35,203 nucleotides of DNA from Candidatus Moraniibacteriota bacterium (GTDB lineage Bacteria > Patescibacteriota > Minisyncoccia > Moranbacterales > GCA-2747515). The stretch's first letter is position 1; every line of letters begins with the position of its first letter. The translations under genes and the position numbers were made by a program. The stretch is taken from assembly GCA_018401135.1 (NCBI GenBank), contig JAGYLL010000005.1, forward strand, positions 1 through 35,203, given 5' to 3'. Under the pieces are notes generated by a model, which was not told the DNA's origin, did no database searches, and saw only the letters and a list, made by a program, of their open reading frames with translations. This document shows, piece after piece, positions 11,186-21,268 of the stretch.

Positions 11186-13285
11186 ATGTTTAGAAACTAT
11201 TTTTCTTCTTTTTTCAAAAAACCATCCCATTGGGTGTGGCTAGGGATAGGAATTTTTTTTCTTATTGCTTTACCAACCTCCATAAAATACACAACGGCAG
11301 ATGAGCATTTTTGGCTCCCTAATCTTGGTGAAGAAAGGGTGCTTGATTATTGGCGAGAGCTCCTCTCTGGAGATTGGGAAGATACTCGTATAAATGATAA
11401 ACCAGGAATAACCCTTGCCTATATTTCAGGAATAGCCATTCCTTTCACTCAAGATCTTTATGCAAATCAAAAAATAAAAACAGATGGATCAAAAATTGTT
11501 CAGTATAATCCCGAAATAACAAAAAAACTCCATTTTGCTTTTCGACTCCCCCTCATTCTTTTTATAGGATTCTTTTCTCTCTATTTTTTCTGGATACTCA
11601 AAAAAATTACCCAAAGTGAAGAAATATCCGCTCTTAGCGCTCTTCTCATTCTCCTCTCCCCCATCCTTCTTGGAATTTCTCAAATTGTTAATCCTGATAC
11701 GCTTTTTTGGGTTTTTGGCTTAGCTACTCTACTTACTTTTACTGCCTATACAAAAAAAAGAGAGAGAAAATTTCTTTTTCTAACAAGTCTTTTTTTTGGA
11801 CTTACCCTTGCTAGTAAATATGTAGCTGTGATTTTTATCCCTTTCTTTCTTTTTATTCTCATAGCAAGTTATCTTTTTTTTCATAAAATATATACAGAAG
11901 ATTCTCAAAATTTCCATAAACGTGTATTAAAAGATGTTTTTGGATATTATGGAATTCTTTTTGGTGGCATCCTCCTCTTTGCCCTTATGATGCCCGCCTC
12001 TATTGTAGATCCTGAAGTTCTTTATGAAAGCACCATTGGCTTTCCAGGAATGCTTCCTATTTTTATAGCAAGTATTCTCTTTACAGTGCTCCTTTCCCTT
12101 GACGCATTCTTTTTTCGTTCGAAAATGCTCTTATTTTTCATTCGCGTTTTTTCTTCAAAGATACAACATATAGAAAGAATACTCCTTGGGGTTCTTCTTC
12201 TTTTTTCTCTTTTTGTTTTTCTTAATTGGCTAACCAAAAATAGCCTCATTGATCTCTCTCATATCCCTTATTATGCCAAAACTAAAGCCTCCTTTACTGA
12301 AGATAATCCTTACCTTATCCGTTTCGTTATGCAATTCGTTCCCCTTGTCTTTGCTCTCACGCCCATAACATTTTTCCTTCTCATTTTCTTTTGGCTTAAG
12401 TCTTTTTTCCTTTCCACACAGCAAAGATTCCTTTCTTTTATTCTTTGTTCTTTTTTTATTATTTTCTATATAGCGGTAGTTGAGCAAGGACTTTTAGTAA
12501 CCGTTCGCTATAGCATACTTCTTTTCCCTATGGCACTCATTCTCGTTTCCATAGGAATTATTGAAACATTCAAAGAAATTCCCTCTTTGGGGAAAAAACA
12601 TCTTCAAATTCTTTCCTCTCTTCTCTTTTTTATTTTTATAAGTTTCTGTTCTTCTTTTATTCTGGATTTTCTTATTAACATACACGAAAAAAATTCTGTA
12701 GAATTCCAACATCAGGTAGAGCTTCTTATAGGAAAAAATAGTCTCTTCTTATCACTTATCGCACTTATACTCGTCATAGGTATTTTTTGGATTGGATGGA
12801 GCTATGGAGAAAAATATCTCACTCGATATAAAAATATCCCCTTTTCCTTTCTCGCCACAGGAACTATTCTTGTAAGCCTCATATCCCTCGCTGGTGCCTA
12901 TCCCCATTTTTTTCTCTATACCAATACCCTCCTTCCAGATAGATATGTTCTCAATAATCCCTGGGGTTACGGAGGGTATGAGGCAGCTCAATATCTCAAT
13001 ACACTTCCTAATGCAAAAGACCTCACTCTTTGGGCAAATTCTCATGGCGTATGTGAGTTTTTTGTGGGTAAATGTATACGAAGTCAAAAACTTGATACCG
13101 AAAAATATCCTGTTGATTATTTCTTTTTCGCCCATCGAGGAGCTCTGGCAAATAAATTTGAAATTTCAGCAACAACCGTTTGGGAGTATTTTCCCGATAA
13201 AAGAAAAACAAATTATGTTCGTTTGCAAAAGAACAACTATTATGAAGCTCCTTCTCCTCTCGAAGTAAAAAATTCTTCTGAATAA
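11186..13285 (+). CDS. Membrane GT-C glycosyltransferase, GT39/ArnT-like (paralogue 1)
   Basis: 699 residues with roughly a dozen membrane helices. The GT-C plan is visible: a first helix, then an extracytoplasmic loop with the acidic pair TTADEHFW (catalytic Asp/Glu in this superfamily), followed by DTRINDKPGITLAYISG, which corresponds to the KPPL-type motif of GT39/ArnT/PMT proteins. SPILLGISQIVNPDTLFW and LASKYVAV mark the next conserved helices. Such enzymes move a sugar from a polyprenyl-phosphate carrier to a protein or lipid outside the membrane; donor and acceptor cannot be told here. The soluble C-terminus contains WGYGGYEAAQYLN and CEFFVGKC, shared with the two paralogues at 13297 and 15282. 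The next gene begins 12 bases later on the same strand. Confidence 0.82.
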   Translation: MFRNYFSSFFKKPSHWVWLGIGIFFLIALPTSIKYTTADEHFWLPNLGEERVLDYWRELLSGDWEDTRINDKPGITLAYISGIAIPFTQDLYANQKIKTDGSKIVQYNPEITKKLHFAFRLPLILFIGFFSLYFFWILKKITQSEEISALSALLILLSPILLGISQIVNPDTLFWVFGLATLLTFTAYTKKRERKFLFLTSLFFGLTLASKYVAVIFIPFFLFILIASYLFFHKIYTEDSQNFHKRVLKDVFGYYGILFGGILLFALMMPASIVDPEVLYESTIGFPGMLPIFIASILFTVLLSLDAFFFRSKMLLFFIRVFSSKIQHIERILLGVLLLFSLFVFLNWLTKNSLIDLSHIPYYAKTKASFTEDNPYLIRFVMQFVPLVFALTPITFFLLIFFWLKSFFLSTQQRFLSFILCSFFIIFYIAVVEQGLLVTVRYSILLFPMALILVSIGIIETFKEIPSLGKKHLQILSSLLFFIFISFCSSFILDFLINIHEKNSVEFQHQVELLIGKNSLFLSLIALILVIGIFWIGWSYGEKYLTRYKNIPFSFLATGTILVSLISLAGAYPHFFLYTNTLLPDRYVLNNPWGYGGYEAAQYLNTLPNAKDLTLWANSHGVCEFFVGKCIRSQKLDTEKYPVDYFFFAHRGALANKFEISATTVWEYFPDKRKTNYVRLQKNNYYEAPSPLEVKNSSE

Positions 13286-13296
13286 ATACACCCCCT

Positions 13297-15210
13297 ATGA
13301 TTAAACTTCTTTCTTTCCATAATATGCTTCTTTTTTTAGAAAAAAATATACTAAAGATTACGGTTACTTTCTTTTTTATACTCTATCTTTTTGTGGGAAT
13401 TCCTCATTTAGGAAAATTTCAAACTGCGGATGAAGATCTTTGGTTTGCCAATCCAACAGAAGGTCGCATTCATGAGTACTGGAGAGCTTTAAAGTACGGC
13501 TCTTGGGAAGATACTCGTATAAATGATAAGCCAGGAGTAACGACCGCTCTCTTAGGGGGAATGCTAGGACTTCCCTATGATCAAGAACCTGGCAAAAAAA
13601 TGCTTCGTAATGGAAATCTTGTTGATCAATTTTACCCAGAATACTTCGAAATAGCCTCCTTTTTTTATCGACTCGGTATATTCCTTGTAAATGGACTCCT
13701 CATTCTCATAATAACGTGGTTCGTTTGGAAAATAACGGAAAATATATTTACCACACTTCTCACTTCTCTTTTCCTTTTTCTCTCCCCTATTTTACTGGGA
13801 ATTTCTCAAATTGTTAATCCAGATGCTACGCTTTGGTCATTCGGCTTTGCTGCTACTGTAGGTTATCTTGCTTTTATTCTAAAGGGACATTGGTGGTATA
13901 TCCTTCCTTCTGGAGTATTTTTTGGCTTCGCTATTCTTTCTAAATATACAGGGTCACTCCTCTTCTTTCTTCTGTATCTTATTACATTTGCTTCTTTTCT
14001 TTTTATAGGAGCCTCTTTTGAAGAGAAGAAATTGTTTCAAAAATTTGTTTTACAACGTCTTTTTGGCTATATTCTTTTGTGTGGTATTGCGATTGCTACA
14101 TTTGCAATTCTTATGCCCGCTGTTTTGGTAGAGACAGAATATCTTTACAAAGGAACCTTTGGATTTAAAGGAGCTCAAAATATAGACACTCTTCTTATTT
14201 TTTTGGGAGGATTTTTTGGAATAGTCCTCTTAGATGCACTTGTATTCAAAGCAACAATTTCTTTTTTTATAGCAAGAAATCTTCGATTTTTGAAACAACC
14301 CCTTTGTTGGATACTATCTCTCATTCTTATAAGTGGAGTTTTTTTCACCCTTCTCACATGGTCAGGAGGCAATCCTTTTGATTTTCAAAACGTTCCTTTT
14401 GATGCTGGTAAAGAAAAATCATATAGAAATATCCTTGATAGAGGAAATCAAATAGCGCTTCAAACAAAACCCATCGTTTATACAATAACCCCTATTATTC
14501 TTGTATTTTTTATATCTCTTCTCCTCTACCCCTTTTCTTTCTTGCAAAAGAATTCTTCAATAAAAGACGAAAAAAAAGATCGTATTCTCTTTTTCATTTT
14601 CGTCTTCGGTCTTTTTATTGTAGCTTTTTTTTACGCTGCTATTTTTCAAAGAGTACTCGTTCATGTTCGCTATAGTATACTTATATATCCTTTTGTCTTG
14701 TTTCTTTCAGCATTAGGAGGATCTCTTATTATACAATTTTTATGGAAGAAACATATATTTCTCGGTGCACTCTCTAGTGGAATAGTCTTTTCTCTTCTTT
14801 TTGCCTCTCTTCTTGCAGATAGACCTTTTTATTTTAATTATACCAATGATCTTCTTCCTCGTGATCAGGATATTGTGGGTGCATGGGGTTATGGAGGTTA
14901 CGAAGCAGCTCAATATCTCAATAACACCATTCCTTTTCCTGAATATCTCACAGCATGGTCAGATTATGATGGTTTTTGTCCCTTCTTTGAAGGTCGTTGT
15001 ATAAAAGGAAGTAATATAAAATGGTATAATAAAGGAACATTCGAAGGTATTGATTATTTTGTTGTCAGTAGACGAGGTCTTATCCGAAATGAAAGTTCTT
15101 GGAAAAAACTCAATAAAAATGACATCATCAATCCCAAACCTATCTGGACACTTTATATCGGGGATAGACCTGGGAATTTTGTAGAAGTGTACGAAAGAAA
15201 AAATAAATAA
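13297..15210 (+). CDS. Membrane GT-C glycosyltransferase, GT39/ArnT-like (paralogue 2)
   Basis: 637 residues, multi-membrane, clearly related to its upstream neighbour: TADEDLWFANPTEGR, then WEDTRINDKPGVTTALLGG, LLGISQIVNPDATLW and ILSKYTGSL. The C-terminal domain repeats WGYGGYEAAQYLN and CPFFEGRC and ends RPGNFVEVYERKNK. The shared motifs in identical order show tandem duplication followed by wide divergence of the membrane helices. The acidic pair in TADED is the expected catalytic site facing outward. It is probably cotranscribed with 11186-13285 and converges on 15282-17282 with 71 AT-rich bases between, where an A/T-only foldback (about 15239-15278) might end both transcripts. The substrate is unknown. 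Confidence 0.82.
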   Translation: MIKLLSFHNMLLFLEKNILKITVTFFFILYLFVGIPHLGKFQTADEDLWFANPTEGRIHEYWRALKYGSWEDTRINDKPGVTTALLGGMLGLPYDQEPGKKMLRNGNLVDQFYPEYFEIASFFYRLGIFLVNGLLILIITWFVWKITENIFTTLLTSLFLFLSPILLGISQIVNPDATLWSFGFAATVGYLAFILKGHWWYILPSGVFFGFAILSKYTGSLLFFLLYLITFASFLFIGASFEEKKLFQKFVLQRLFGYILLCGIAIATFAILMPAVLVETEYLYKGTFGFKGAQNIDTLLIFLGGFFGIVLLDALVFKATISFFIARNLRFLKQPLCWILSLILISGVFFTLLTWSGGNPFDFQNVPFDAGKEKSYRNILDRGNQIALQTKPIVYTITPIILVFFISLLLYPFSFLQKNSSIKDEKKDRILFFIFVFGLFIVAFFYAAIFQRVLVHVRYSILIYPFVLFLSALGGSLIIQFLWKKHIFLGALSSGIVFSLLFASLLADRPFYFNYTNDLLPRDQDIVGAWGYGGYEAAQYLNNTIPFPEYLTAWSDYDGFCPFFEGRCIKGSNIKWYNKGTFEGIDYFVVSRRGLIRNESSWKKLNKNDIINPKPIWTLYIGDRPGNFVEVYERKNK

Positions 15211-15281
15211 AAAACAATCACTATTTTTATGTATAACAAAAAGAAAATCTTTCAAAAGAAGAACATTTTTTTTCTTTTTCA

Positions 15282-17282
15282 TTATCTATTTCTTTCTTCT
15301 TTATTCTTTTCTTCTTTGTGAAGTTTTATAATTTTTACATAGTTTCCAGGACGATTTCCTATAAGTAATTCCCATTCGGGAGTCTCGAATACTTCTGTAT
15401 AATAATAAGAAGAGTCGTAATGTTTTCCTTCTGGATATTTCCAAGAGAAGTGATTTCCTCTTGTAACATTTCTCCTAGAAATTACTATGTAGTCGGGTTG
15501 TACACGAGAAAGATCAAAAGAATCGCTTTTGAGACACTTCCCTACGAAATAACGACAAAATGCCTGTCTATCAGACCACACTTCTAGATATTGAGCTAAA
15601 GGTTTATTGTTGAGATATTGAGCGGCCTCATAAACACCGTAGCTCCACGAATCTGCCAAAGAAAGTGATTGTGGAAGAAAAATATTTTGATAATTAAGAT
15701 AGTAGGGTTTAATACTTAAAAGAGAAGATACCATACAAAGAAAGCCGATACATAATGTACCAAGAAAAATAGTTTGGCGATGTGTCGGACATCTTTTTCC
15801 TAATATGCGTAGTATATCTACAAGAAAAATAACTGACAAAAGGGCGATAAAAGGTTGTATGAGTATAGCATAACGAGCATTGACAAAAACTCCAGAAATA
15901 ATCCCCCCTACAAAAAATATCCAAGGGAGAGCGAGAGCAACAAAAACATATTCTTGGTAAGAAGTTTTTCCTTTCCACAGCATTCGAATGAGACCTATAA
16001 TGAGAACAAAAAAAATAAATGACGGTATGGAAAAAATGGTACTTGCTGACTGTGCCATAATTTTTTTCACAAAAGCTATGAGAGCATTGTCATCCTGAGC
16101 ATAAGGAAATGGCAATGTTTTGTTGTATTTTTCTCCATTTAACTCCCCTCGCGTGATTTCTTTTATATCATCTATAGGAACAAAATTCCCTCCAGAAAAG
16201 GCATTTATGAGATGAGAGAAAATGAGAATGAGAAAAATACTTGCAAAAAATCTCAGAAAAAAACGATTGTACACCCTCAAAAAAGAACTTAGGGTAAGTA
16301 CAAAAAAAGACTTGAAAATAAAAATATCAATCACAAGAAAGATAAAAAATCCAGCTATAAAAGGTAAGATAGGTATAAGTCCAGGAGAAAAAAGTGTACC
16401 GCTCCAAAAAAGAGAAGGTTCTTGAAAAACAGCAGGCATAAGAAAGGCAAAAAGAACATATCCCAAAACAAGAATACTTACAAATTGTAAAAGAGTGTGA
16501 CGAAATATTTTTTGAGCTTCTTTTTTGGTACGTTTTGAAAAACGAAAAATAAAAAAAACACTAAGTGTCATAAGAAATATAGGAACGAGAAGATTGGCGG
16601 TATATTTAGAAGACACAGCAAGTCCAAAAAAAATACCCGAAAGAAAAACGTATCTCCATTGTTGCTTCTCCAAACAAAGAAAAAAAGCTAAAGAAGCGAT
16701 AAAACTGCTTATCCAAAAGATAGTATCGGGATTAAGGATACGAGATATACCAAGAAGAAAAGGATTGAGAAAGAAGAATAAAGCACTAAAAGAAATAATG
16801 AGAAAAGAGTGTGTCCAGCGAAAAATAAGAAAAAGAAGAAATGCAAAGGCCAAAAGAGAAAAAATAGCCACAGGCAAACGAAGTCCGAAATTTATAGACT
16901 CAGACCATTCTGTTTTGAAAGATCGATAGAGCCAATCTCCACCAACCTTTCCAGAACGAACATATTCTCCAATTTCTGGTACAAAAGGAAGTCCAATGCC
17001 AGATATAAGAGCAAGTCCTACGCCAGGCTTATCATTAATGGCTGTTTTTGACCAATCACCTTCACGAAAACCCTCTTTTATCCCTTCCCAATAAGAAGGG
17101 ATGCGATCTTCTTTCCAATAATCCTCATCAGACGTTTCAAATTGTGCCAAATTCTCAAAAAGAAAAAAAGATCCTACTCCAAAAACAAGAATAAGAAAAA
17201 AGAAGAAGAAATAAAGCTTCTTTTGTGTTAAAAACTTTAAAAACGTATCACCTTCTTCTCCTGCTCTATCGGTACATTGCAT
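15282..17282 (-). CDS. Membrane GT-C glycosyltransferase, GT39/ArnT-like (paralogue 3)
   Basis: 666 residues; third member of the local family, on the opposite strand. Conserved points are ETSDEDYWKEDRI, TAINDKPGVGLALISG, FLLGISRILNPDTIFW, AVSSKYTANLL, and in the C-terminal domain WSYGVYEAAQYLN, CRYFVGKC and NRPGNYVKI. It differs from the other two by a cytoplasmic-looking extension before the first helix (MQCTDRAGEEGD) and a highly charged end (HKEEKNKEERNR). It begins 2 bases after the stop of the 109-residue gene and so sits at the 3' end of the secD-secF cluster. GT39-like transfer of lipid-linked sugar is inferred from motifs only. Confidence 0.82.
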   Translation of the reverse strand: MQCTDRAGEEGDTFLKFLTQKKLYFFFFFLILVFGVGSFFLFENLAQFETSDEDYWKEDRIPSYWEGIKEGFREGDWSKTAINDKPGVGLALISGIGLPFVPEIGEYVRSGKVGGDWLYRSFKTEWSESINFGLRLPVAIFSLLAFAFLLFLIFRWTHSFLIISFSALFFFLNPFLLGISRILNPDTIFWISSFIASLAFFLCLEKQQWRYVFLSGIFFGLAVSSKYTANLLVPIFLMTLSVFFIFRFSKRTKKEAQKIFRHTLLQFVSILVLGYVLFAFLMPAVFQEPSLFWSGTLFSPGLIPILPFIAGFFIFLVIDIFIFKSFFVLTLSSFLRVYNRFFLRFFASIFLILIFSHLINAFSGGNFVPIDDIKEITRGELNGEKYNKTLPFPYAQDDNALIAFVKKIMAQSASTIFSIPSFIFFVLIIGLIRMLWKGKTSYQEYVFVALALPWIFFVGGIISGVFVNARYAILIQPFIALLSVIFLVDILRILGKRCPTHRQTIFLGTLCIGFLCMVSSLLSIKPYYLNYQNIFLPQSLSLADSWSYGVYEAAQYLNNKPLAQYLEVWSDRQAFCRYFVGKCLKSDSFDLSRVQPDYIVISRRNVTRGNHFSWKYPEGKHYDSSYYYTEVFETPEWELLIGNRPGNYVKIIKLHKEEKNKEERNR

Positions 17283-17624: not shown

Positions 17625-18527
17625 TTATGAATTACGTTTTGTATATTTTATAAGAGAACTCGTAACGAGTAAAGAAGATGCTACAAAAATAGAAGAATAC
17701 GTTCCAATAAGAACACCGATAAGAAGTGCGAGAGAGAAAGCAAAAATAGTTGTTCCCCCGAAAAGAATAATAGCCAAAAGAACAACAACAACCGTCATTG
17801 AAGTATTAAGAGATCTTCCGATTGTTTCCAATACCGAACGATTAATAATAGATTCAAAATCTTCTTTTCCGCTATGACGCAAGAGATTTTCACGAATTCT
17901 GTCATAAACAACTATAGTATCGTTAACACTATAACCAAGTACCGTAAGAATAGCAGCAATAAAAGGAATTCCTATCTCCACACCATAAAAATTTCCCAAA
18001 AAAGAAAATACTCCCAAAGTAATAACAACATCGTGAACAAGTGCAATAAGAGCGCCTAATCCGTATTGCCAAGAAGGTATGGGACGAGAAAGTTTCCTAA
18101 ATGCCCATGCTATATAAAGAGCTATTACTATGATCGCTACAATAACAGCTTCGATAGCTTTTTCTGTTAATTCCTTAGAAACAGAAGAACCGAAAAAATC
18201 TGTTCGCACAATCTCAGCCGATTCATGAATACCAGTAAGTGCTGTTCGTACTTGTTCATTCTTTGCTTCATCTGAAGAAAGATAACGAATAAGAAAAGAA
18301 TTATTTTCTCCTTGTTGAAGAGAAGTGCTTTGAAGCTCTAAACCAGTGAGAGATTCTTCTACTTTTTGCTTTTCTATATTTTCAGAAAATCGTACTTCCA
18401 TCAATGTTCCTCCCTGAAAATCAATACCCAATCGCAACCCCCATAGAGAAAGAGCTATCACACTTATCGCGAAAAGTGTAAGAGAAAAAATATAAGCATA
18501 TCTACGTTTTTGAATAATGGCAATCAT
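17625..18527 (-). CDS. secF: Protein translocase subunit SecF
   Basis: 300 residues, normal for SecF. With SecD it forms a proton-driven complex that helps SecYEG complete export and release substrates. It has a first membrane helix, then GIDFQGGTLMEVRF (the SecF form of the conserved D-F-x-GG motif), a small extracytoplasmic domain, and five further helices. VHDVVITLGVF, LGYSVNDTIVVYDRIREN and SVLETIGRSLNTS are the family's conserved stretches; Asp residues in the first two correspond to those used for proton coupling. It starts 2 bases after the secD stop, indicating coupled translation. Confidence 0.97.
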   Translation of the reverse strand: MIAIIQKRRYAYIFSLTLFAISVIALSLWGLRLGIDFQGGTLMEVRFSENIEKQKVEESLTGLELQSTSLQQGENNSFLIRYLSSDEAKNEQVRTALTGIHESAEIVRTDFFGSSVSKELTEKAIEAVIVAIIVIALYIAWAFRKLSRPIPSWQYGLGALIALVHDVVITLGVFSFLGNFYGVEIGIPFIAAILTVLGYSVNDTIVVYDRIRENLLRHSGKEDFESIINRSVLETIGRSLNTSMTVVVVLLAIILFGGTTIFAFSLALLIGVLIGTYSSIFVASSLLVTSSLIKYTKRNS

Positions 18528-18529
18528 AT

Positions 18530-20233
18530 TTACATATTTTTCTTATTCTTTTTAGGAAGAGACGTTATGAGCCAAAGGTGTTTACTAAGAAAACTCATCG
18601 GCATAGCATTAAGAATTACTCTCACAATAACAACCGCAGTAAACATAGATAAAGAAACTCCTATAAAGAGAATAGTGGCAAAGCCTTGTACAAAACCCGT
18701 ACCGACCCAAATAAGGACTATTGCGGTAAGGAGCGTCGAAACATTACCGTCAACAATGCTTGTCCATGCTCTACGAAAACCTTCTCGTACGGCATTTTCT
18801 ATATATTTTCCATATCGCAATTCTTCTTTTATTCTCTCAAAAATCAAAACATTTGCATCTACAGCCATACCGATAGAGAGAATAAAACCAGCAATTCCTG
18901 AAAGTGTAAGCGTTATAGACCAATCCGAGCCAAGAAAGGAAGAGAGTTTGAATATGCTTATGAGCATAGATGCGTACATAAGAATGGCGATACTAGCAAC
19001 AAATCCAAATAAACGATAGTAAAAAATCATATAAAGCATAACCGCGAGAATTCCTATCATGCCAGCTTTCAAGCTTTTAGAAAGTTCTTCTTGTCCAAGG
19101 GATGCCTCTATACTCTGTTGTCCAACAAGTTCCAAAGGAACAGGTAAAGCACCTTCATCTAAACGAGCTTTTAATGCTTGTGCTTCTTCTAGTGTATACT
19201 GACCTGTTATCGTAGCTACACCATTAGGGATAACATCTTGAACGGTTGGTGCTGTTTCAATCTCACCATCGATAAATATTGCCAGAGGCTTTCCGATATT
19301 TCGTTCGGTTATCTCTTTGAAAAGCTGAGTTCCCTCTTCATTAAAATTCAAAATAACGGTAGGTTCACCAAGTCCGTATCCACCACCAAAATCTACGGAA
19401 GCCCTCTCTAGATACCTTCCTGTAAGCCCTGTTTCTTGATATTGAAAATCAGGAATGTATTCTCGTGTAATTTTTCCAAAAAGAATATGTCGAGCTCTTA
19501 CCTCTTTTTCTTCCCCCTCCCCTCTTCGCTCTTCTACCTTTATAATATGCCAACCAAAATCTGACTCTACAAGCTCTGGATATACTGATCCCAATGCTAA
19601 CGTTTCATCAAAAACTACTGCTTCGAATTCAGGAACAAAGGTTCCTTTTTTTACGAAATCCAAATCCCCCCCATTCTCTTTTGATCCGGGATCTTGACTG
19701 AATTCTTTGGCAAGCTCTGAAAAATCTTCTCCGGACTTAACTTTTTCCAAAACCTCTTTTGCCTTTTCAAGGGTAGGTGCATTAAACTGTTCTAATGAAC
19801 GAATTACTTCGGGATCATCTTCAGGACGTTCTTCTTTGAACTCTAGGGTTGGAGTTTCTTTTATTAAACTTTTCGCCTCTTCTATATCTTTCACACCAGG
19901 TAATTCTACGATGACACGATAGGTATCTTCTGATTGGGCTGTTTGAACAAGAGACTCTCCTACACCAGAAGGATTTACTCGACGTTCTACAACAGCCTGT
20001 ACTGCTGAGATAGCATCAGATCTCTGGTCAGAGGGTATTGTGCTCACATCAGCATTATACTCAAGGTGGACACCTCCTTGGAGATCTAATCCCAGAGAAA
20101 CCTTTAATTGATTCACCTTTTGATAGAGGGGATCAAAAAATATAACTGATTGTGGATAGGCAATCACACCAGAACATACTCCAAGGAGAATTACACCCAA
20201 AATCTTTAACTGCATTTTTCGTCGAAATGTCAT
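18530..20233 (-). CDS. secD: Protein translocase subunit SecD with an inserted parvulin-like domain
   Basis: SecD partners SecF in the export-assisting motor. The ATG at 20231-20233 gives 567 residues; an in-frame TTG five codons upstream is less likely. Order: membrane helix 1 (about 8-26), GLDLQGGVHLEY, first extracytoplasmic part (DAISAVQAVVERRVNPSGVG), then an insert (about 153-253), then normal SecD again from about 265 (TGLTGRYLERASVDF, TVILNFNEEGTQLF, LKARLDEGALPVPLE), and five membrane helices with LSIGMAVDANVLIFERIKEE. The insert matches PpiC-type rotamase (KSGEDFSELAKEFSQDPGSK, NGGDLDFVKKGTFVPEF, FGWHIIKVEE), but its RHILF strand follows the rest of the domain instead of preceding it. 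Head of secD-secF. Confidence 0.95.
   Translation of the reverse strand: MTFRRKMQLKILGVILLGVCSGVIAYPQSVIFFDPLYQKVNQLKVSLGLDLQGGVHLEYNADVSTIPSDQRSDAISAVQAVVERRVNPSGVGESLVQTAQSEDTYRVIVELPGVKDIEEAKSLIKETPTLEFKEERPEDDPEVIRSLEQFNAPTLEKAKEVLEKVKSGEDFSELAKEFSQDPGSKENGGDLDFVKKGTFVPEFEAVVFDETLALGSVYPELVESDFGWHIIKVEERRGEGEEKEVRARHILFGKITREYIPDFQYQETGLTGRYLERASVDFGGGYGLGEPTVILNFNEEGTQLFKEITERNIGKPLAIFIDGEIETAPTVQDVIPNGVATITGQYTLEEAQALKARLDEGALPVPLELVGQQSIEASLGQEELSKSLKAGMIGILAVMLYMIFYYRLFGFVASIAILMYASMLISIFKLSSFLGSDWSITLTLSGIAGFILSIGMAVDANVLIFERIKEELRYGKYIENAVREGFRRAWTSIVDGNVSTLLTAIVLIWVGTGFVQGFATILFIGVSLSMFTAVVIVRVILNAMPMSFLSKHLWLITSLPKKNKKNM
19475..19777 (-). other. Inserted, apparently circularly permuted parvulin domain in SecD
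   Basis: Codes for about residues 153-253 of SecD (numbered from the ATG at 20233). Ordinary parvulins begin with an RHIL strand and end with a GYHIIKV strand. Here the helical part and GGDL...FVPEF come first, then FGWHIIKVEE (His229), a charged linker (RRGEGEEKE), then VRARHILFGK (His249). Both active-site His residues are therefore present with strand order changed. The first and last strands of parvulins are neighbours in the sheet, so permutation is structurally reasonable. The alternative is a complete-minus-one-strand domain plus the stump of a second copy. Confidence 0.75.
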
Positions 20234-20314
20234 AAAAAAATCTATCAATATTTTCTATCTACCCTATCCTATAGCATTATCTTTTTTTATTCAAGAGTCA
20301 ACTCCAAAACTTTT

Positions 20315-21268
20315 CTAGGAAAGATCTTTCTCAAGATATTCTTTCAGGGCATCTTTCCATGACCGAAGAAGCTTTACCTTTGTATTAAGAAGAATTGATT
20401 GTGATGGTCTTTGTGCATCTCTTGTAAAAAAAGACGCTTTCACAGGGAGTATTTTGGTAGAAAGTCCGGTATATTCGAAAAGATACTGCACAGCCTCAAA
20501 CCATGTGACAGCACCTTCATTTACAAGATGATACATTCCAAAAGCAGTCTCTTCTTCAAGAAGATTTTTTGTTGCCAGTGCCAAATCAGGAGCATAGGTA
20601 AAGCAACTTTTTTCATCATCAATAACTTCTATACTATCTTGTTTCCTTCCCTTTTCTAAAATTATGCCAAAAAAGCTTTTTTTGGCATATTCTGATTGGG
20701 CAGGTTTTCCAAAAAGTTTAGAAAGACGTATAATGTAATATTGATCTGTTTTTTTCTCTATTTCCATCTCTCCATCATATTTTGTCTTTCCATAGCGAGA
20801 AAGTGGTTGTGGTCTATCGTGTTCACGATATCCATCAAAAATTCCATCTTTGCGAAAATATGAGCATCCCATACATCCACTCCCACAACAACCTGGCGCT
20901 CTCCCCTCTCCTTTATAGCGAGGTACTTTTCCATCAAAAACGTAATCTGTGGAATAGTGAATGAGTATCGCACGAAGTTCTTGGGAAATTTCTGCCAAAA
21001 GAGAGGGTATTCTTGTATTTATAACTACCGCCTTACGATACTCTTCTTCATCTTTTTGACAAAGATCTACAAAATTATACGCTGAAGCATTGATAATGAT
21101 ATCAGGCCACGCTTGTGTAATTTTTTTCCACACTTCCTCTTCATAAGTAAGATCAAGATCTTCCCTGTCCCAAGCAAGTACTGTATAAAGAGTATCTTCT
21201 GAAAAGACCTTTACAAGAGCTTGTCCAAGCATTCCTTTTGCCCCAAGTATTAAAATGGTTGTTTTCAT
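20315..21268 (-). CDS. RmlD-like NAD(P)-dependent sugar reductase with cysteine-rich insert
   Basis: 317 residues, extended short-chain dehydrogenase of the dTDP-4-dehydrorhamnose reductase type. The Rossmann motif GAKGMLGQAL begins at residue 9. NASAYNFVDLCQ replaces the usual NAAAYTAVDxAE, STDYVFDG (106-113) holds the catalytic Ser/Thr, and YGKTK (159-163) is the YxxxK pair. RLSKLFGK and the C-terminal RDAQRPSQSILLNTK are also RmlD-like. Between RYKG and the PLSRYG helix is an insert of about 26 residues with CCGSGCMGC (127-135), not part of normal RmlD and resembling a metal or Fe-S ligand cluster. No rmlA, rmlB or rmlC partner is in the window, so the exact sugar is unknown. It lies 81 bases upstream of secD on the same strand, divergent from pyk. 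Confidence 0.82.
   Translation of the reverse strand: MKTTILILGAKGMLGQALVKVFSEDTLYTVLAWDREDLDLTYEEEVWKKITQAWPDIIINASAYNFVDLCQKDEEEYRKAVVINTRIPSLLAEISQELRAILIHYSTDYVFDGKVPRYKGEGRAPGCCGSGCMGCSYFRKDGIFDGYREHDRPQPLSRYGKTKYDGEMEIEKKTDQYYIIRLSKLFGKPAQSEYAKKSFFGIILEKGRKQDSIEVIDDEKSCFTYAPDLALATKNLLEEETAFGMYHLVNEGAVTWFEAVQYLFEYTGLSTKILPVKASFFTRDAQRPSQSILLNTKVKLLRSWKDALKEYLEKDLS

Follow-up and report, generated by a model that had tools for sequence, protein, structure and literature searches.

SecDF draws polypeptide chains out of SecY with the proton gradient, the head of its extracytoplasmic P1 domain moving. In canonical parvulins, the first strand of the chain lies in the sheet between the GGDLDF-type and GWHII-type strands; the parvulin of PpiD has the normal strand order. 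E. coli SurA, a separate soluble periplasmic protein, binds the SecYEG-SecDF-YidC holo-translocon, with both of its parvulin domains placed against the P1 head in AlphaFold models; parvulin action at SecDF has been proposed for it from binding, EM and AlphaFold data (PMC9987972). PpiD associates with SecYEG, and PpiD-YfgM contacts SecG (PMC9643414). The SecDF structures 3aqp, 5yhf and 5xan contain the SecD core with the P1 base and head, but no parvulin between them.

The window, meaning the whole 35,203-nucleotide stretch that was analysed, encodes a SecD that has this core in common with those structures, whose alignments skip an insert present here. A PpiC-type parvulin sits between the base and the head of the P1 domain. 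With the PF00639 parvulins (PrsA, the SurA repeats, Pin1) it shares the body fold, the GGDL motif and both histidines, but its first strand comes last, and it lies inside SecD rather than in a separate foldase. With SurA it has in common that parvulin domains are placed by the P1 head of SecDF, close to the exit of the translocon (PMC9987972), although here the domain is covalent and permuted. PpiD-YfgM resembles it as a membrane-anchored parvulin-domain protein at the Sec translocon (PMC9643414), and differs as a separate protein. No description of a SecD with a parvulin, or of a circularly permuted parvulin, was found in the open-access papers searched, although public domain-architecture databases may list SecD plus Rotamase uncommented. 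What is new, in that it is undescribed in the open-access literature searched, is the arrangement of known domains and the topology of one of them. The features of the locus are as follows, in window coordinates.

18530 to 20248, minus strand: secD, an open reading frame of 572 aa matching TIGR01129 and Pfam SecD_1st, SecDF_P1_head and SecD_SecF_C.
17625 to 18527, minus strand: secF, directly 3' of secD and completing the SecDF pair, assigned from its open reading frame and sequence only.
19829 to 20107, minus strand: P1 base (N-terminal half), residues 48–140, ending in TPTLEFKEE.
19775 to 19828, minus strand: linker, then the beginning of the long helix that runs into the parvulin body (residues 141–158), from alignments.
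19520 to 19774, minus strand: parvulin body, residues 159–243, with helices, the GGDLDFVKKG strand and the GWHIIKVEERR strand (PF00639, PF13616).
19691 to 19693, minus strand: D186, parvulin active-site position (D in 76 of 81 aligned P1 domains).
19547 to 19549, minus strand: H234, second active-site histidine (H in 78 of 81).
19475 to 19504, minus strand: displaced first strand VRARHILFGK, residues 249–258, from the profile gain on moving it back and a high-pLDDT strand in both structural models.
19487 to 19489, minus strand: H254, first active-site histidine (H in 75 of 81).
19139 to 19435, minus strand: P1 head resuming, residues 272–370, from about TGLTGRYL (PF22599).

The protein is a full-length SecD (TIGR01129, 369.1 bits against a cut-off of 244.4), with PF21760 SecD_1st at residues 83–140 and PF22599 SecDF_P1_head at residues 272–370 on either side of the parvulin insert, and SecD_SecF_C at residues 377–548. 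The P1 subdomains, SecD_SecF_C and the adjoining secF, the last read from its sequence and not from a family scan, are all present and mark it as a SecD with a predicted role in export. The start codon is TTG, with an in-frame ATG at codon 6. H234 and H254 are taken to be the equivalents of Pin1 H157 and H59, and D186 to occupy the position of Pin1 C113.

An earlier sequence-only reading had placed a parvulin of circularly permuted strand order at 19475–19777, and these positions do encode SecD residues about 158–258 on the minus strand. The PpiC-type match it had recognised was borne out by PF00639 Rotamase, which matched residues 157–239 with E = 6e-21 (75.7 bits, cut-off 21.7); the motifs it quoted were all found, and both catalytic-site histidines, H234 and H254, are retained as it had said. 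The PF00639 match begins at profile position 16 of 97, departing from the canonical first-strand-first order, and that of PF13616 begins at position 37 of 116. The order along the chain is parvulin body, GWHIIKVEERR (residues 232–242), VRARHILFGK (residues 249–258) and then SecD sequence again, just as the sequence-only reading had described. All parvulin elements are present, with the first strand at the C-terminal end, and this arrangement is conserved in homologues.

A canonical parvulin profile was built from 21 parvulins of other bacteria. The natural SecD segment covers profile positions about 9–88, and placing VRARHILFGK before the body extended the match to 1–88 with a gain of 8.2 bits over the body alone, a value that depends on a join trimmed to canonical spacing, which the controls received identically. 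When 452 further 10-mers from this SecD were moved likewise, the best of them gained 4.4 bits, and 2 of 1000 shuffles of VRARHILFGK reached at least 8.2 bits. With a longer strand piece moved and the linker left untrimmed, the gain was only 2.3 bits over the body alone and was not separated from shuffles. Whole SecD proteins of 78 genomes were also scanned with the canonical first-strand motif; its top match lay just downstream of GxHII in 74 of them, 72 of these matches falling within 45 residues of it and two, with longer linkers, at 46–47; the remaining four SecDs showed no strong first-strand match anywhere in the protein. Linker residues 141–158, ahead of the body, contain no first-strand motif, the best match being downstream instead.

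AlphaFold2 models were produced for the P1 domain, using 81 sequences, and for the insert alone. The P1 model had a pLDDT of 91.5, with most 10-residue blocks across the parvulin at 95–98, and the isolated insert gave a pLDDT of 94.0 and a pTM of 0.87. Residues 249–258 were assigned as strand by DSSP in both models, six residues after the 232–242 strand, and the GGDLDFVKKG strand was also paired. The RHIL strand apparently forms a hairpin with the GWHIIKV strand in the models, and it would fill the canonical first-strand slot of the sheet, with which the hairpin spacing and the partnered GGDLDF strand agree. The sequence-only reading had held that its proposal would fail if RHILF lay outside the sheet; as far as DSSP tells, this is not the case, the segment being modelled as a strand. 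The SecD parvulin body superposed on PrsA 6vj6 with 1.2 Å over 83 columns. Foldseek matched the insert to the Bacteroides PPIase 8hm3/8hm4 over 117–121 columns (TMq 0.64–0.69), which could mean that the RHIL strand overlaps the strand of the next repeat there. Three lines of evidence favour circular permutation: the order of elements in the profile match, its conservation within Moranbacterales and beyond, and the confidently predicted AlphaFold2 strand.

A search of 96 relatives returned SecD matches in 95, a few being only other parvulins, and the close SecD matches were Moranbacteria/Moraniibacteriota. In alignments, the body-then-strand order was common to the insert-bearing Moranbacterales SecDs covering the region. 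Both histidines were present in 75 of the 81 aligned P1 domains, which are drawn from the order and other lineages, while three had lost both and three only the HIL histidine; these sequence counts are not independent events, and Fisher values on histidine co-retention are descriptive only. The insert can persist without an intact active site, since six SecDs (L119, L121, L149, L152, L155 and L156) lack one or both histidines and keep it. Of these, L121, L149, L152, L155 and L156 belong to the same family as the source genome, with active-site residues lost and the permuted insert retained. Two Moranbacterales genomes of one family, L113 and L114, encode a SecD without the insert in which linker remnants are still present, indicating that the insert was lost there and that it is dispensable for SecD in those genomes. 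The two proteins offer a natural deletion comparison for the parvulin insert.

The homologue search suggested with the original proposal, for the same insert in the same order, found it across Moranbacterales and in other Patescibacteria. A profile of the insert plus flanks, used to search the class and the phylum, revealed single permuted copies in SecDs of other families of the class and of other classes of the phylum (L203–L206). Most sampled class members gave no match to this profile, and the insert-less class SecDs examined were mostly about 450 aa long with a short linker and no HIL-like strand. No parvulin insert was seen in the examined alignments of Bacteroidota and Actinomycetota SecDs.

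Other Patescibacterial lineages carry a longer P1 insert, consisting of a first body, an HIL strand, a full second body, a second HIL-like strand and then SecD. As judged from their sequences, these tandem SecDs hold a permuted parvulin whose body and displaced strand enclose a second, nested parvulin that is complete and in canonical order. This reading follows from histidine concordance. Among 23 tandem SecDs, strand 1 and body 2 retain their two histidines in 21 proteins and have neither in two; for strand 2 and body 1, neither histidine remains in 21 proteins, one protein has the two, and one is mixed; summed, 22 pairs were both kept, 23 both lost and one mixed, Fisher values on this pairing again being descriptive. 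Pfam matched the nested copy of L213 over profile positions 1 to 96, which is canonical. The alternative of each body pairing with the next strand was rejected, as the histidines are discordant under that pairing. Separately, L254 and L255, from one family, have a P1 insert of ~460 residues with one intact canonical parvulin flanked on both sides by long diverged stretches.

The permuted order extends to stand-alone SurA/PrsA-like foldases of Patescibacteria, which were permuted in 39 of 40 cases overall. A phylum search listed 21 stand-alone domains, one of them unscored, and in 19 of the 20 scorable domains the strand occurred only after the body, the other being canonical; in the class search, all 20 proteins, read by eye, place a related strand behind the body, with none ahead of it. 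L224 consists of a SurA_N_3 domain plus a permuted parvulin, and the stand-alone foldases stop shortly past the displaced strand. Glutamine replaces the first histidine in 15 of the 20 class proteins (L286–L305; e.g. LRQIFV), whereas the SecD copies keep histidine. In bacteria outside the phylum, where the motif was readable, the strand lies ahead of the body or two parvulins stand in tandem; this set was chosen largely by body peptide, hence blind to strand order, and includes ~10 domains without a readable motif.

The tandem forms suggest how the order may have arisen. A single unbroken alignment matches the SecD insert to repeat 1 of E. coli SurA, the linker after it and the opening strand of repeat 2; its SurA side ends in EVHARHIL and its SecD side in EVRARHIL. 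Retention of the first body of a tandem parvulin together with the first strand of its second repeat would give the permuted order seen. The parvulin-body tree, with 83 columns, is too short to order single and tandem forms. The single, tandem and insert-less forms are interleaved in a tree of the SecD core, where losses occur within Moranbacterales and singles within a tandem clade.

The sequence-only reading had itself named, as something that would refute it, homologues in which RHILF begins a second complete parvulin copy lost only here. This is half borne out: the tandem SecDs of other Patescibacteria do start a second complete parvulin at that very position, which changes the history of the insert, not its permuted reading. 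The single permuted form, whose conservation, histidines included, extends through Moranbacterales to several other families, is no remnant 'lost only here'. That RHILF survives from a lost repeat and has no part in the fold is very improbable: I255 is conserved in 79 of 81 sequences, L256 in 74 and H254 in 75, no other first strand was found in the domain, the strand is confidently modelled even in the isolated insert, and the stand-alone foldases end soon after its equivalent. It is scarcely credible that the segment is ordinary SecD sequence resembling a parvulin strand by chance, as its immediate continuation into SecD sequence might suggest, because Patescibacterial SecDs that lack the insert show only a short linker there, L113 and L114 lost the strand together with the insert, and almost every SecD has its best first-strand match at that place. 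The linker of the insert-less SecDs contains no strand of this kind.

What the domain does is a separate matter. The likely explanation is that SecD of this Moranbacterales-type genome contains a natural circularly permuted PpiC-type parvulin, derived from a tandem, between the P1 base and head, where it would isomerise emerging chains. From its place in P1 the parvulin would be located where chains leave SecY, its position and homology suggest that it receives and holds the emerging chain, and its retained active-site residues point to isomerisation of X-Pro bonds, so that proton-driven P1 movement and a folding helper would act on one chain. A real permuted fold that is non-catalytic, serving as a docking or chain-holding module whose proline site is a mere binding groove, is rather unlikely. 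It would accommodate the 6 of 81 aligned SecDs that keep the domain without one or both histidines, the tandem SecDs, most of which combine an intact nested domain with a decayed permuted one, and the glutamine of most class stand-alone copies. However, most single-copy SecDs, even deeply diverged ones, retain both histidines, D186 and the GG-L motif, and SecD holds the only parvulin found in the source genome with both histidines, the single other PF00639 protein (286 aa) having glutamine for the first. Because several relatives in the same family have lost one or both histidines, prolyl isomerase activity of the SecD parvulin is a prediction from these residues, and the domain most likely handles and isomerises chains leaving SecY as a covalent version of SurA docking on SecDF.

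The source genome also encodes trigger factor, a lipoprotein cyclophilin and an FKBP anchored in the membrane, and SecD therefore shares with other isomerases the task of serving the cell envelope. Together with the second parvulin-type protein, they weaken the earlier suggestion that separate foldases are few in this cell.

In SecD, a folding helper that is usually separate from the export machine appears as part of it. The fusion constitutes Rosetta-stone evidence for parvulin foldases acting on SecDF at the translocon exit, and the permuted SecD offers a compact single-chain system for asking whether SecDF hands an emerging chain to a folding helper. As a natural permutant, the domain would be a test case for the tolerance of the parvulin fold to rewiring and for the origin of permutation; one phylum contains its single, nested-tandem, decayed and lost states. 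A broader proposal, put forward tentatively as a possibility, is that Patescibacteria harbour a phylum-wide lineage of permuted parvulins in membrane-anchored SurA-like foldases and in SecD, where an active isomerase would be mechanically coupled to proton-driven P1 head movement, making chain pulling and proline isomerisation one machine.

Elsewhere in the window, a dTDP-4-dehydrorhamnose reductase-like protein (20315–21268, minus strand) contains a cysteine-rich stretch, CCGSGCMGCSYFRKDG, that resembles an insertion. Three neighbouring large membrane glycosyltransferase-like open reading frames at 11186–17282, two on the plus and one on the minus strand, are alike in sequence, carry the motifs NDKPG, LGIS..NPD and YG.YEAAQYLN, and look like a local gene family.
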